Part shown: positions 4,498 through 22,711 of the stretch, one piece after another
Layout: each line of letters starts with the position of its first letter
Numbering within the stretch: position 1 is the stretch's first letter
Virus record (IMG/VR): IMGVR_UViG_3300009774_000023
Location: 1 to 24,961 of that record
DNA: 24,961 nt
Reading direction: 5' to 3' (one strand)
DNA from: a virus
Notes under the pieces: model-generated
The model's input: the letters and a program-made list of their open reading frames with translations, nothing else
The model's database searches: none
What the model was told of the DNA's origin: nothing
Position numbers and translations under genes: made by a program

Positions 4498-5090
4498 TTA
4501 GTTGTTCGGTTGCTGCCTTCTATCGTTCAATTTAACATGGTCACTATCTAATTCCCATATGAAAAATGCTTGCTGAATTGCCCAGTCAGGCTCTTCTAAT
4601 ACTTGAGCCATTGATAGATGAAACTGTTGTCTGTATCGAAAGAGCGCAATATCATCTTTTACATCAGCTGGAATGTTGTGAACAAGGCCCCTAACTACTA
4701 CATCTCTATAGCATTCTTGATACTCGGCTAGTTGGTCGGCCCAGTCTGGGTCAAGTTCATCCCAACTTTTGGGTCGTCGTACTTGCTCCTAGTAATCAGT
4801 TCAAATGCACTCGTGGTTAAGATTGCTGGAAGGTCATCAATGTCATCGGACTCAGCATCGAGCGTCTCTCCACCAACGAGGACCTTTCCATTCTTGAATG
4901 CAGCTTTGACGTACTTCGTAAAGACCCGCACATACGCTTCTCCGTCTTTCGAATCAAGCAGAGCCATCTCCTTAGTACACTCCATTGAAGCTCTAGAGTC
5001 CATCACCTGGAAGGTTAGGTAGTGATCTTTGGTCCAGCCTTCAGAAACTCTGTCTAAAGATAGGGTAGCTATAAGTTGCAGTCGTGACAT
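4498..5090 (-). CDS. Tail assembly chaperone, long form made by -1 frameshift (gpGT-like)
   Basis: Predicted 197-aa frameshift product. Frame 0 runs from ATG 5090 through the Lys codon AAA at 4769-4767; slipping back one base there continues in the -1 frame for 89 codons to TAA at 4500-4498. The -1 frame is open from just upstream of the slippery site and reads as a good protein (SWDELDPDWADQLAEY, then HNIPADVKDDIALFRYRQQF, then EEPDWAIQQAFFIWELDSD). It has no start codon or ribosome binding site near its beginning. The gene pair lies between tail tube and tape measure genes, exactly where lambda-like phages encode gpG and gpGT. The long form should recruit tail tube protein to the tape measure during assembly. 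The frameshift is inferred from sequence, not measured. Confidence 0.85.
4728..5090 (-). CDS. Tail assembly chaperone, short form (gpG-like)
   Basis: 120 aa from ATG 5090 to TAG 4730-4728. The start is supported by GGAGA 8 nt upstream. An acidic stretch (ESDDIDDLPAIL) and a conserved-looking N-terminus (LQLIATLSLDRVSEGW) fit small siphophage tail chaperones, which are poorly conserved in sequence but fixed in position. Made by normal termination, it would be the abundant partner of the frameshifted long form and would coat the tape measure before the tube polymerises. It is separated from the tail tube gene by a strong terminator (5143-5167) and may have its own promoter. Function rests on gene order and the downstream -1 frame. 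Confidence 0.85.
   Translation of the reverse strand: MSRLQLIATLSLDRVSEGWTKDHYLTFQVMDSRASMECTKEMALLDSKDGEAYVRVFTKYVKAAFKNGKVLVGGETLDAESDDIDDLPAILTTSAFELITRSKYDDPKVGMNLTQTGPTN
4767..4773 (-). other. Programmed -1 frameshift site CCCAAAA
   Basis: Read on the minus strand the heptamer is C CCA AAA in the zero frame, a canonical X XXY YYZ slippery site. It lies 12 codons before the short-form stop and inside the stretch where the -1 frame is open. A short TGGG/CCCA pairing just downstream could add a weak hairpin; I did not find a strong one. Confidence 0.85.
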
Positions 5091-8173: not shown

Positions 8174-8572
8174 CTAGACATTCATATCTTTGTAAATTTG
8201 TTCTTGGCTTTTTCCATCTAGGACAGAGATAGAAATTGCCCTGATCGTATCCAGCGATACGTATGCACGCCTTTTTCTTACATTCTCCGACTTTGATATC
8301 CACTGGAGGTTAGATACTCTGTTGTCATTTCTAAGTCGGTTCAGGTGATCTATATACAGAGGCCCAACGTGATCAGGTTTTGGAAGAAACGCATCTGCAA
8401 CCAGCCGGTGAACGAAATATCGCCTTGTCTTTCCATCGGTCCGAAGTGAAACATTGGCATAGTCGTTGCGAAAGTAGAAGGCCCTTATTCGCTTGAATTT
8501 GGAGTGACGAACACGACCCTGATTAGATACTTCAAAGTATGGTGCTGTATCGATTTGTTTCCAAAACTCCAT
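8174..8572 (-). CDS. NUMOD4-HNH homing endonuclease
   Basis: 132 aa. The N-terminus (EFWKQIDTAPYFEVSNQGRVR) is a NUMOD4 motif; the centre (FVHRLVADAFLPKP, then IDHLNRLRNDNRVSNLQW) is the HNH_3 core with His, Asp-His and Asn-N residues that bind metal and cut DNA. The last 30 residues (LDTIRAISISVLDGKSQEQIYKD) look like a helix-turn-helix NUMOD used for target recognition. It stands between the capsid cassette and the connector genes with terminator-like DNA upstream, so it is a free-standing selfish endonuclease rather than a structural gene. No intron is evident around it. The family call is firm; whether it is active is unknown. Confidence 0.92.
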   Translation of the reverse strand: MEFWKQIDTAPYFEVSNQGRVRHSKFKRIRAFYFRNDYANVSLRTDGKTRRYFVHRLVADAFLPKPDHVGPLYIDHLNRLRNDNRVSNLQWISKSENVRKRRAYVSLDTIRAISISVLDGKSQEQIYKDMNV

Positions 8573-11097: not shown

Positions 11098-11832
11098 CTA
11101 TTGCATCACCCGGACAGGAAGCAAAACGCATCGACACCTCGGATGAAGTGGAGCACCAGGTACGTCGTCATAGCTGTGGTTATATGTGCTTACCTTCGCG
11201 TCACCATTTCGATTGGTTGATGTCTCGTGCTGCACATCGCCTTTATCGAAGAAGTTCTCATCGATCCCAATGATTCGGCCATCCATAGGGCCACAGAATG
11301 GACAAACCATTTCGTCTTCAGCTGTGTGCCACTCTTTGCCCTCGATGACGCCTGACTGTCCCCATGCTGATATGTCGGCATAAGACTGCGCCCTGGCTAC
11401 CTCAGTAGAGGCGATGAGATCTGCACGCTGCTCGATCGCAAATCCAAAGATCGCCTCGACTCGTGATCGAAGTGTGTAACCGCTCTCCCCAGCATTGATA
11501 CCTTCTGTGAGAGCTGCCCTGAGCTGCTTCTCGGTCTCATCATTGACATCACCTGCAATCTTGAAGCTACGGGCATCTAGGTACTCTCTGACGGCCTTAG
11601 CGAACGGATCATAGGTACTTGGCTGCTGCCCGATCTCGAGCATCGCTTCACGAGCTGTTGAGATGATCACTTCATAGAGAGTTGGAGCGATGGCTAGCTT
11701 GATTGAGGTGTCAGACTGCTCCCATTCGATCAGGTCGCCTACATAGTCCTTTGTCTTGATGGACTTTCCGCGGGGATTGTTTGCCAGGCCCTCTAATACG
11801 AGTGCCTTCTGTGCATTGAACTGCGCACGCAT
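11098..11832 (-). CDS. MuF-type head morphogenesis domain, probably expressed as portal fusion
   Basis: 244 aa from the first ATG (11832), but the frame is open and protein-like for at least 29 codons upstream (VAARTAKARRYESALVQI precedes the Met), back to the A10 run in the portal gene, with no ATG, GTG or TTG and no Shine-Dalgarno at 11832. The C-terminal part has the Phage_Mu_F / SPP1 gp7 signature: ASTEVARAQSYADISAW, then EWHTAEDEMVCPFCGPMDG and PLHPRCRCVLLPV, whose Cys/His residues may bind metal. MuF proteins bind the portal and are packaged in small numbers. The most economical reading is production as the C-terminal part of a frameshifted portal-MuF protein; independent start at 11832 cannot be excluded. 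Confidence 0.85.
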   Translation of the reverse strand: MRAQFNAQKALVLEGLANNPRGKSIKTKDYVGDLIEWEQSDTSIKLAIAPTLYEVIISTAREAMLEIGQQPSTYDPFAKAVREYLDARSFKIAGDVNDETEKQLRAALTEGINAGESGYTLRSRVEAIFGFAIEQRADLIASTEVARAQSYADISAWGQSGVIEGKEWHTAEDEMVCPFCGPMDGRIIGIDENFFDKGDVQHETSTNRNGDAKVSTYNHSYDDVPGAPLHPRCRCVLLPVRVMQ

Positions 11833-13253
11833 GATCTGGACCAGGGCAGATTCGTAGCGCCGTGCTTTCGCTGTTCGAGCTGCAACCTTATGCTCACCCT
11901 GGTTAGTCGTTAAGTCTTTTTTTTTTGACCCGCTTGAGGGTCGTTCTTTGGATCGTTCGGATCAGCATTCGGATCTTCGCTGTCTAGAGCATTTGGATCA
12001 GTTGTAGGCGCCGGCTGTGATTGAGCCGTACCGTCTGCGATATTGCTCAGTGGAACATTTGTACCTGCCATGTAGATCTGCTCGCCTAGGTGATCTGGAA
12101 GGGCTTCCTCGCCATACATCTCGCGTACTTCATCAATCGTGTAGACCTTATTCGTCAGTGCACTAGCAAGCTTGAGCTTTGCTTCTACGTCTTCTGGCAC
12201 TGGATTCTCAAAGCTGAGCTCGAGTGTCGGATCGAATGGGTGGACAAGTGATTGGTTCAGCTGCTCTACGAACTGAGTCACACGAGGGACGACGTTGAAT
12301 AGGATGTGCATGTAGAGCGCAGCGTCCATGTTGGCGCGGTTGAAGTTAGCTGTCATGCCGAGCACAGCGTCAGGCGTCTTCCACATAGCGAGGACTTCTT
12401 CTTTAGAGAACTTACGGCTACCAAGGAAGTCGAGATCTGAAGGTGTCATCATGAACGGCTTAGCGTCTCCACCTTCAATCAGCAGTGGCTTACCGGCATT
12501 GCCTGCGCCTGTGTTCTCATCGCTGAATTGCTGCTTCCACCTGGCGTAGGACTCATCTGACATCTCTTCGTTTGAGGTGAAGATCAGAGACGGTTTAGCG
12601 CCATTGGCGATCAGGTTGCGGTTCCAGTCCTTCATCTGCTCGTCAAGGTCGATCGTCGCTGCGGCAGCTGAGATTACTGACTGGCCGTTGTATGGGTCGG
12701 CAGGGTTCGGGTTGATGTCACGAATAAAGGCTGTGACTGGGTAGTCGTGGTTGGCGAACTTAACGATGCTCTTTGAATACGCAGGTTCGAGCTTGAATTG
12801 GACCAGGTGGGACTCGAAGATCTGAAGCGCATCCGGCAGTTTGTTCTTGCCAGGGACGAATGGCTCTGTGCCTTTCGTCATGTAGATATAGCTCTCACCG
12901 GTGAAGTTGACATAGGTATAGTGGAGCTTGCGTAGCTGACGGCCTGTGTGAGCGTTGTTAGGCTCGTTCAGTAGCTTGAGGATTGGGTGATCGGTGATCT
13001 CTTCCTGGTCGCCGTCTAACTTCTTCCGATAGAGCTTGAAAGGCACTGCTGCACAGAGCGATGCGATTGAGTCATTGGCGGCAAAGGACCATCCCACGTT
13101 GGCACTGATCTGCTCACTCTTGAGTGCATAGTTCTTAGTACGCCCATCGCCCCAGAGATCATCTACTGGTCGAAGAGAGGGCAAATAGTCCTTGCGAGAT
13201 GCCCCCGCAATGAACGCTCCAAGCCTTTGACGTAATGATCCTTTGTTTTTCAT
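11098..13253 (-). CDS. Predicted portal-MuF fusion by -1 slippage on A10
   Basis: Frame 0 from ATG 13253 through the portal to the Lys codon at 11921-11919 (445 codons), then -1 into the MuF frame for 273 codons to the stop at 11098: 718 aa. The MuF frame is exactly -1 relative to the portal. The run gives slippery A AAA AAA heptamers, and polymerase insertion of one A would have the same effect. The MuF frame is closed by TGA upstream of the run (at 11962-11964), so entry must be near the run or at the later ATG. Covalent portal-MuF fusions are known in other phages. Expression is inferred. Confidence 0.6.
11910..13253 (-). CDS. Portal protein, HK97-type
   Basis: 447 aa. It shows the HK97 portal pattern: an N-terminal clip/wing region (VGWSFAANDSIASLCAAVPFKLYRK), HPILKLLNEPN with GRQLRKLHYTYVNFTGESYIY, an SHLVQFKLEP segment, a DPYNGQSVISAAAATI stretch and the stem/crown helices (KFSKEEVLAMWKTPDAVLGM). 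The last 40 residues are disordered, rich in Asp, Pro and Asn, ending QAGQKKKT over a run of ten A. Twelve copies form the portal ring through which DNA enters. The disordered tail could be a linker when the protein is extended into the MuF frame. It follows the large terminase after a 69-nt gap; no Shine-Dalgarno is near the ATG. Confidence 0.94.
   Translation of the reverse strand: MKNKGSLRQRLGAFIAGASRKDYLPSLRPVDDLWGDGRTKNYALKSEQISANVGWSFAANDSIASLCAAVPFKLYRKKLDGDQEEITDHPILKLLNEPNNAHTGRQLRKLHYTYVNFTGESYIYMTKGTEPFVPGKNKLPDALQIFESHLVQFKLEPAYSKSIVKFANHDYPVTAFIRDINPNPADPYNGQSVISAAAATIDLDEQMKDWNRNLIANGAKPSLIFTSNEEMSDESYARWKQQFSDENTGAGNAGKPLLIEGGDAKPFMMTPSDLDFLGSRKFSKEEVLAMWKTPDAVLGMTANFNRANMDAALYMHILFNVVPRVTQFVEQLNQSLVHPFDPTLELSFENPVPEDVEAKLKLASALTNKVYTIDEVREMYGEEALPDHLGEQIYMAGTNVPLSNIADGTAQSQPAPTTDPNALDSEDPNADPNDPKNDPQAGQKKKT
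11917..11926 (-). other. A10 slippage run at portal/MuF junction
   Basis: Ten consecutive A on the minus strand (CAA AAA AAA AAG in the portal frame), two codons before the portal stop. Runs of this length are known to provoke -1 ribosomal slippage and RNA polymerase stuttering. It is the longest homopolymer I noticed in the window. Confidence 0.8.
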
Positions 13254-15594: not shown

Positions 15595-15640
15595 GTTTGC
15601 ATCGATAGCGATGTTTCTGAAAATGTCCCGAAGTATTACT
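15595..15640. terminator. Weak hairpin between convergent genes
   Basis: CATCG-ATAG-CGATG followed by TTTCTG, after the plus-strand membrane gene and before the end of the CAP gene. The stem is only 5 bp, so termination here is a guess. Confidence 0.25.
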
Positions 15641-16226
15641 GACTCACTCCAGTCACTGGCAACTTGTCCTCTGCGACCTGTTCAGTACCAAAGTGTGCAA
15701 CAACGTAGTTGCAGTCGTCTCGCGAGCTGTGAGCTATTCCGAAGCCAACATCTTCATAGTCACCGACAAGGACCGCTTGGTGAGTCGGACTATTGATCCA
15801 GGCCTCAACTATGGCGTTCGTACTAGTCCAACACTTCGCCAGGTTCTCTCCTGCGCGCTGATAGTCATATCCAACTGTGTTGAAGAAGTCCCAAGGCGTC
15901 TTGCCTGGCCGAGTGTGCGCCCAATAGTTCTGGGCTACAAGGTCATCCGCTTTAGCTTGAGCTGATGATTCGAGCTTGGTGTTGAGTGCCAGATATGAAA
16001 GGTGTTTCGTGGATCTGTACTGATTCACAAGTGACAAAGCGCCTGGGACGTTCTCCGTGGCCGGCTGCGCGTTGACAACTGATATAGCCGGCGGTTGGAC
16101 CGTTGGCTCTATAGGACGAGCTGAGATGAATATAGAAGCGTAGAGCCAAATAATTGCAAGCATCGCTCCAATAGAAGCGAAAAGTACTATGGTTCCAAAA
16201 GTTGAATAGGTTGATCGTTCGCGCAC
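15636..16226 (-). CDS. Membrane-anchored CAP/SCP-family protein
   Basis: 196 aa from GTG 16226 (AAGGA lies 8 nt upstream; the overlapping ATG is in another frame and stops early). Residues about 10-34 are a signal anchor, then a Pro-rich linker, then a CAP domain (about 62-185) of the bacterial YkwD type: LVNQYRSTKHLSYLALN, NYWAHTRPG with His104, GENLA with Glu127, EAWINSPTHQAVL with Glu141 and His149, and a FGIA strand. These four residues match the family's metal/active-site set. Two Cys (132, 172) could form a disulfide outside the cell. Bacterial CAP proteins act at the cell surface with mostly unknown chemistry. It has an unusually long structured leader. A lysis or host-surface role is speculation. 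Confidence 0.9.
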   Translation of the reverse strand: MRERSTYSTFGTIVLFASIGAMLAIIWLYASIFISARPIEPTVQPPAISVVNAQPATENVPGALSLVNQYRSTKHLSYLALNTKLESSAQAKADDLVAQNYWAHTRPGKTPWDFFNTVGYDYQRAGENLAKCWTSTNAIVEAWINSPTHQAVLVGDYEDVGFGIAHSSRDDCNYVVAHFGTEQVAEDKLPVTGVSQ

Positions 16227-19011: not shown

Positions 19012-19725
19012 TTAACCAAACATTAGGCCAGCGAACTCAGGCATTGTAGAAACAAGGAATAGCGCTTGCGCATCTTTGTCTCCACGTTCAATGATCCAAC
19101 GCAGCTCACGCGCGCGTGCGTCGTCTGGGGCTATGAATAAAACGAGTGGGAAGCTCGACAAGTCATCTTCTGTAGCGTGCTGATATGCATGCCAATATCG
19201 CGCGAGTTTATCCTTAATAGCTTTCTGTCTTTCAGTCCCCATATCGATCTCGATCCACAGACTGATGTTTCGGCGCTTGACCAGATCCGCCACGTCGACG
19301 TGATAGTCAGGACGCAAGTCAGCCCCCGCAATTACTTGCCAGGTATCCGGCTCAGTAGAAAAGCCGTCTATCCGTACGCGGCCGGCCCGCTCTGCTCTCA
19401 ACAGTTCTACATGAGCATCAGCGATTCCGAGTGTGTGATAGTCAACGGTCCTGAATGGCCAGAATCTACCGGGACGTCGTGAGAGCGCGTGCCCGGCACT
19501 TCCGAGCTGAAAGACGAACTGACCACTCCCTGCGCCGTTCCCACCTACTAGGCGGCGCTCTATTCGCTTCACATAGCCGCGATCTGCAAGTCGGGTCATT
19601 GCACGCCACATTGGAGTACCACTCGCCAGGTCATTGAAATGCAGAGCAGCAATGTGTGCAGATGCAAGCTGTCCGAACTTGGCAATAGACAGCACGATCT
19701 GGCGGTCACGATCATGGATAAGCAT
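19012..19725 (-). CDS. Replication-relaxation family protein
   Basis: 237 aa. The N-terminus is a winged helix (DRQIVLSIAKFGQLASAHIAALHF, then MTRLADRGYVKRIERRL) followed by FVFQLGSAGHALSRRP, the pattern of replication-relaxation / MobC-type proteins of Gram-positive plasmids and phages. The second half resembles a restriction-like fold (RPDYHVDVADLV, WIEIDMGTERQKAIKDKLARYWHAY), with Asp, Glu-x-Asp and Lys in nuclease-like order. Such proteins are proposed to nick or relax DNA or act with replication. It ends just left of the promoter/operator at 18957 and starts beside a DnaA box region. A consensus promoter ends 6 nt before the ATG. The family call is good; biochemical function is inferred. 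Confidence 0.85.
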   Translation of the reverse strand: MLIHDRDRQIVLSIAKFGQLASAHIAALHFNDLASGTPMWRAMTRLADRGYVKRIERRLVGGNGAGSGQFVFQLGSAGHALSRRPGRFWPFRTVDYHTLGIADAHVELLRAERAGRVRIDGFSTEPDTWQVIAGADLRPDYHVDVADLVKRRNISLWIEIDMGTERQKAIKDKLARYWHAYQHATEDDLSSFPLVLFIAPDDARARELRWIIERGDKDAQALFLVSTMPEFAGLMFG

Positions 19726-22171: not shown

Positions 22172-22711
22172 ATGGTTATCGAAATTACAAACGGATTTAT
22201 AATAATTGATCGAGCTGACTTACTGCTTGCTCGCAAGTATAAGTGGCACGTCAATGACCAGGGATATGCAGTCTGGCGCGGAGTTGAGGATGGGGAAAAG
22301 AAGACCCATCGTCTGCACCGACTAATCGTGCACACACCAAAAGGACAGATCACAGACCATATAAATCACAATCGGCTTGACAACCGCCGTAGTAACTTAC
22401 GCATCGTCACTCAATCAGAGAATATGCGCAATCTGACAGATCAAGGAAAAGGTTACTGGTATCACAGGAAGAACAAGAACTGGTGCGTAGAGATACATGG
22501 TAAGCACATTGGATCATTCAGGACTGAGGCTGAGGCTATAACGATTGCTTCTCAGGTTCGCTCTGGTGGAACATACATAAAACCGGAAAGAACAGAATGC
22601 AAGTTCGGGCATTCGCTAGTTGATGCTTACAGATATGAGCGTGTCACCTTGTGTAAGCCCTGCATGAAACGTAGACAACAAGAATATTACAGAAGGAGGA
22701 TAGCAAAATAG
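22172..22711 (+). CDS. HNH endonuclease with AP2-like and CxxC tail
   Basis: 179 aa. N-terminal HNH_3-type domain: YKWHVNDQGYAVWR, HRLIVHTPKGQITDHINHNRLDNRRSNLRIVTQSEN, with the His, Asp-His and Asn residues of the fold. Residues about 103-130 (GKGYWYHRKNKNWCVEI, HIGSFRTEAEAI) are a short AP2-like DNA-binding region; then Cys/His residues (ECKFGH, TLCKPCMKRRQQEYYRRR), reminiscent of phage HNH proteins with a zinc tail. It lies between two copies of a small glycine-rich gene and probably inserted after a conserved AGGAT.GG.AGC stretch. The stop TAG overlaps the ATA start of the next gene. Confidence 0.9.
   Translation: MVIEITNGFIIIDRADLLLARKYKWHVNDQGYAVWRGVEDGEKKTHRLHRLIVHTPKGQITDHINHNRLDNRRSNLRIVTQSENMRNLTDQGKGYWYHRKNKNWCVEIHGKHIGSFRTEAEAITIASQVRSGGTYIKPERTECKFGHSLVDAYRYERVTLCKPCMKRRQQEYYRRRIAK

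Follow-up and report, generated by a model that had tools for sequence, protein, structure and literature searches.

A candidate programmed −1 frameshift site joining portal and MuF in a clade of phages

The portal gene of the phage studied here appears, from its sequence, to end in a programmed −1 frameshift site whose minority product would be a portal-MuF fusion, a reading to which we assign a probability of about 0.86. The portal is the ring of 12 subunits by which DNA passes into the head, and MuF is a second head protein. The portal gene lies in a virus record of 24,961 bases (the window); the host and the remaining genome fall outside that record. A recoded portal-MuF fusion had been proposed in the initial annotation of this DNA, and its conservation in about 14 lineages now gives it strong support. 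Most ribosomes would terminate at the portal TAA to give a 447-aa portal, and lysine tRNAs could re-pair on A_AAA_AAG, letting a minority of ribosomes slip back one base into MuF and produce a protein of 718 aa. Both products would share the portal domain and so could co-assemble in one dodecamer, in which the slip rate would set the number of MuF-bearing subunits; a rate near 10% would put MuF on about 1-2 of the 12. The run of ten A in the window may add RNA polymerase slippage, leading to the same product.

Portal and MuF reading frames in the window

The features of the locus are as follows.
11910 to 13253, minus strand: portal ORF, zero-frame product of 447 aa with C-terminus ...GQKKKT and then the stop; PF04860 (E 1.8e-54), phrog_12 / phrog_2662
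11917 to 11926, minus strand: A10 run, ten T on the plus strand, read directly
11916 to 11922, minus strand: slippery heptamer A_AAA_AAG in the portal frame, with a heptamer at the same place in related −1 loci
11910 to 11912, minus strand: portal stop TAA, directly 3' of AAG ACT
11098 to 11961, minus strand: open MuF frame, −1 to the portal; PF04233 (E 1.3e-15); no ATG, GTG or TTG before 11832
11098 to 11832, minus strand: MuF ORF from the first ATG, as given by mechanical ORF listing; conserved MuF residues lie upstream

In the Pfam search the portal scored 185.5 bits against a cut-off of 39.1 (PF04860), and MuF, encoded 3' of the portal, 58.6 bits against 29.6 (PF04233). The minus-strand codons at the portal 3' end are GGT CAA AAA AAA AAG ACT TAA, and a second heptamer, A_AAA_AAA, stands one codon upstream of A_AAA_AAG. 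Direct reading confirms that the MuF frame is −1 to that of the portal and meets it at the A10 run near the portal stop, and that MuF has neither an ATG, GTG or TTG nor a Shine-Dalgarno sequence before 11832, both as first annotated. A −1 shift at A_AAA_AAG (11922-11916) joins 446 portal residues to the 272 aa encoded past the slip (11098-11916, plus stop), which yields the 718 aa given earlier for the slip product. The locus thus combines an overlapping downstream ORF in the −1 frame without its own start, as in −1 frameshifting, with a run of at least nine A/T, as in slippage of the Thermus dnaX type.

The first MuF start codon is the ATG at 11832, 30 codons past the slip (29 by the earlier count), and the sequence before it, tctgccctggtccagatc, contains no Shine-Dalgarno. 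This stretch had been described as protein-like, and it aligns with the MuF of 12 relatives, as conserved protein would. Met 11832 is not likely to be the MuF start, because conserved MuF residues precede it. MuF might still be a separate protein whose translation begins by reinitiation or coupling, in which case the overlap would be incidental; distinct muf genes beside the portal are common (PMC5576092), and the more distant loci L127 and L158 have TGATG overlaps. However, the first start comes at residue 30 in the window, 81 codons past the slip in L001 and 88 in L027, in each case after conserved MuF residues, and heptamer conservation would be left unexplained, which makes a separate MuF improbable.

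Elsewhere in the window, a CAP-superfamily protein (15636-16226, minus strand; PF00188, 4.9e-14) has an N-terminal hydrophobic segment and the C-terminus KLPVTGVSQ, whose LPxTG-like motif is terminal and lacks the membrane segment that usually follows. Two HNH endonucleases are encoded at 8174-8572 (minus strand; NUMOD4 and HNH_3), inside the head module, and at 22172-22711 (plus strand; HNH_3). A Replication-relaxation family protein lies at 19012-19725 (minus strand; PF13814, 1.2e-19), a family known mainly from plasmids and integrative elements.

Slippery heptamers among relatives

Relatives were gathered by scanning viral contigs and genomes with the portal and MuF as queries, and so by homology to either protein and not by slippery site. 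Their portals are roughly 50-57% identical, with two more distant loci at 27-32%. Apart from Dietzia maris itself, the 395 genomes sampled from the Dietzia class held MuF matches that were all distant, and the 401 sampled from the Dietzia family added three more close loci, two of them −1. Among GenBank phages there was no close cultured relative (portals at most about 30% identical), and in the examples inspected portal and MuF are fused or separate in the usual ways, or lack annotation; among plasmids only distant portals matched.

In the clade loci that are neither fused in frame nor ridden with indels, MuF is always in the −1 frame and never in +1, and a start codon in the overlap is mostly absent. 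A phased X_XXY_YYZ stands 1-15 codons upstream of the portal stop in the −1 clade loci.
A_AAA_AAG: window, L001, L010, L019, L029, L100, L102-L104
A_AAA_AAC: L005, L026
A_AAA_AAA: L024, L027
C_CCA_AAA: L002, L008, L009, L097 (Dietzia maris), L098, L105, L168, L170
G_GGA_AAA: L042

An in-frame X_XXY_YYZ was present in the overlap of all 20 of the −1 loci tested (about 14 lineages; overlaps of 8-76 codon pairs), and the same motif occurred 3 times in 8,622 codon pairs of their portal bodies. The chance of a heptamer in the overlap is 0.3-2.6% per locus; the joint product, 2e-45, overstates the case, since it treats all loci as independent and counts the ascertained window as well as near-duplicates (L008/L009, L024/L027, L098/L170). 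Once near-duplicates are allowed for, about 14 lineages with five types of heptamer still stand. For L168 the portal stop was placed too far downstream, which enlarges the overlap and is conservative. The five different heptamers share one place and mostly belong to the class V_VVA_AAR, among the most shift-prone heptamers in E. coli (PMC4066793).

The C_CCA_AAA and G_GGA_AAA lineages have at most four A in a row, so a long A run fails as a common element of the family. The initial annotation had named the A10 as the slippage element and asked whether the run is conserved; the heptamer does sit within it here, and the run is kept in the A-run lineages, but the A10 itself is not the conserved element. 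Relatives without it carry another heptamer in its stead, never a MuF start with a ribosome binding site at the equivalent of 11832, and most loci have no usable start at all.

Some loci count against this reading. An in-frame GTG lies 3-4 codons past the slip in the MuF frame in L008, L009 and L042, and about 10 codons past it in L098; L003, a noisy contig with other indels, reads through in frame and has no heptamer. L015 also has other indels, and retains TTC CCA AAA CCA.

Homopolymers attract indel errors, and with indels in L003 and L015 the frame break could be seen as an assembly error, or else as a decayed gene. Yet the same −1 offset recurs across independent metagenomes and also in contigs from genomes (L097 from Dietzia maris, L168, L170), with heptamers that have a longest run of four, and the MuF Cys and CRC motifs are kept, so that error or decay is scarcely credible; the comparative set thereby disposes of a sequencing error restoring one continuous frame. 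The A run could also be a phase-variable tract, replication slippage toggling genomes between fused and unfused states, as A10 unfused (window, L029, L100) and A10 fused (L011-L014) loci coexist. This is very improbable: L011-L014, from four metagenomes, are uniform at A10, the difference in phase comes from bases before the run and not from its length, and the shift is kept in lineages without a run.

In three of the loci (L019 2139-4013, L024 2013-3965, L098 2028-3983) the portal ORF includes a 2'-5' RNA ligase / Acb1-like domain (PF13563, PF23474), with an Acb1 score under the Pfam cut-off in L019 and L024. It follows the portal domain and precedes the slip site, so an anti-CBASS-like domain would be present on every portal subunit. 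Directly upstream of the L098 portal, a terminase-like ORF (16-1968) has an intein-like insert (CVHEDTLVDTPSG...VLTHNC).

Stimulatory signals and the route of slippage

A Shine-Dalgarno-like GAGGGT element precedes every C_CCA_AAA, G_GGA_AAA and A_AAA_AAA site, its G-run set 12 nt from the heptamer, and reads GAG GGT then AAG in all except L168. Even L042 has it, with a portal identity of only about 30%. GGT makes up 4-30% of Gly codons in the genes bearing the element, and its choice there has a joint log10 probability of −6.7 if six lineages are taken as independent. Experiments in E. coli have proven that GAGG placed 6-17 nt upstream stimulates −1 frameshifting (PMC4066793). At this distance a canonical Shine-Dalgarno is absent in most A-run loci, the window included. 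The only similar element in the window, AGCGGGT close to the run, was rejected, as about 10% of portal-body windows match it.

A downstream stem-loop was likewise rejected as a common stimulator, with z near 0 in A-run loci and about −0.7 to −2.2 in C_CCA_AAA loci; downstream RNA structure is not found in all bacterial frameshift cases (PMC4066793). L024 and L027 do have a perfect hairpin, GCCTGAA-gaga-TTCAGGC, a few bases 3' of both A_AAA_AAA and the portal stop; with z about −1.9, it might act as a stimulator in that lineage.

The window phage itself appears to use, for its tail assembly chaperone, the same heptamer and spacing as its relatives use at portal-MuF.
4767 to 4773, minus strand: C_CCA_AAA of the tail-assembly-chaperone pair, ORF 4728-5090 with a −1 extension to 4498
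The slip context is GAC GAC CCA AAA GTT, and AGGAG (4786-4790) lies 12 nt upstream. The identity of the pair rests on its position before the tape measure (PF20155) and on its architecture; profile searches of 4498-5090 (minus strand) gave no PHROG or Pfam match.

Either the ribosome or RNA polymerase could slip at such sites. In the A-run lineages, including the window, polymerase slippage on A9/A10 rather than the ribosome might yield the fused message. All A_AAA_AAG and A_AAA_AAC loci have 9-10 A, more than the heptamer requires, and bacterial RNA polymerase slips efficiently on 9 A (PMC5009743). Most of these loci have no canonical Shine-Dalgarno, and L011-L014/L099/L110 and L101 are fused yet keep the run, so that both products are possible from either phase. 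Against this, the C_CCA_AAA, G_GGA_AAA and A7 sites, in the same place and the same clade, cannot work in this way, and by ending in AAG/AAC the sites preserve a heptamer in codon phase, for which polymerase slippage has no need. In the window and the A-run relatives nearest to it, only 5-24% of Lys codons are AAA, and the site is nonetheless AAA AAA AAG/AAC. We regard polymerase as the sole agent in these lineages as rather unlikely, and it may contribute or even dominate in the A9/A10 members, the window among them.

For the family at large we favour −1 ribosomal frameshifting, since in some lineages the same position is occupied by heptamers that lack a long run; the C_CCA_AAA sites, with no more than four A, mean that polymerase slippage on an A run cannot explain the family. 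Both kinds of slippage had been invoked at the outset, and polymerase slippage is now confined, as a possibility, to the A9/A10 lineages. The evidence is comparative throughout, and from it we only infer the efficiency of the frameshift, the presence of the fused protein in virions, its co-assembly and a set count of subunits with MuF in each ring. That recoding builds a mixed dodecamer, with ~1-2 MuF subunits per ring breaking its 12-fold symmetry and with frameshifting and polymerase slippage interchangeable in setting the ratio, is a tentative proposal, held at slightly short of even odds.

Origin of the site and known systems

In a maximum-likelihood portal tree the frameshift loci fall in one clade, with the in-frame-fused L012/L101 and L018 nested among them; three changes are needed, for which a single gain and two returns to in-frame fusion suffice. 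Because outgroups are mostly in-frame portal-MuF fusions, the fused state is probably the older one and the frameshift a later addition, which would have demoted MuF to a minority of subunits. L018, which matches phrog_2662 end to end, has wholly lost the site. L011-L014/L099/L110 (A10) and L101 (A9), two sister lineages, are in-frame fusions that retain the run, in which one A fewer would give a portal ending ...KKKT or ...KKKTICQK before a stop. By analogy with Thermus dnaX, the retained run is what polymerase slippage would need to make a portal-only protein.

The conserved recoding site in this gene pair appears to be undescribed, as the initial annotation had supposed: the literature searched, which takes in few subscription papers, yielded no description of portal-MuF recoding. 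The portal is not mentioned among GeneTack clusters (PMC3711429) or in the accessible part of a large recoding review (PMC5009743), and PRFect counted MuF-like genes among its hits as false positives, tied to VIP2-MuF fusion genes (PMC10274946). Gene callers miss the site, calling MuF from a late ATG or not at all. It offers a direct route to asking how a phage places a few MuF copies on a 12-fold ring, and since −1 slippery sites, A-run sites and in-frame fusions all occur within one clade, the gain, change and loss of recoding signals can be followed there as a natural experiment.

In-frame portal-MuF fusions are known in cultured phages (PMC7302621), such as Streptomyces phage Gilgamesh (gp46) and Microbacterium phages of clusters EA and EB, and together with those of the outgroups they show that the fused chain is viable. 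They resemble the present case in having both domains in one chain, but carry MuF on all subunits, with no frameshift. The model MuF protein, SPP1 gp7, binds the portal at about 1-3 copies per virion (PMC5576092, PMC4493119), and without it only about a quarter of SPP1 virions are infectious (PMC6316719, PMC5576092, PMC4493119). SPP1 gp6/gp7 is thus alike in placing a MuF protein on the portal ring in that dose, and unlike in that MuF comes from a separate gene and is held non-covalently. If MuF here acts as gp7 does, a few of the 12 subunits with MuF covalently attached would provide an SPP1-like dose by another route.

Tail chaperones and major capsid proteins are known cases of recoding (PMC5009743). 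In the tail assembly chaperone G/GT, a gene of the structural module undergoes a conserved −1 shift close to its end, and short and extended products are made in a set proportion, as proposed here, but these are tape-measure chaperones, not a portal ring plus MuF. Capsid frameshifts (Lactobacillus A2, T3/T7, Listeria PSA; PMC5009743) also add a recoded C-terminal extension to a minority of head-protein subunits, mostly an Ig-like domain on the shell protein, whereas here MuF would be added to the portal. Escherichia coli dnaX shares the A_AAA_AAG beside a stop, has an upstream Shine-Dalgarno of its own, and differs in that its shift truncates the product, near 1:1, whereas the shift here would extend it. 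Thermus thermophilus dnaX uses polymerase slippage on A9 (PMC5009743); the dnaX family has solved the problem both ways, as may hold here.
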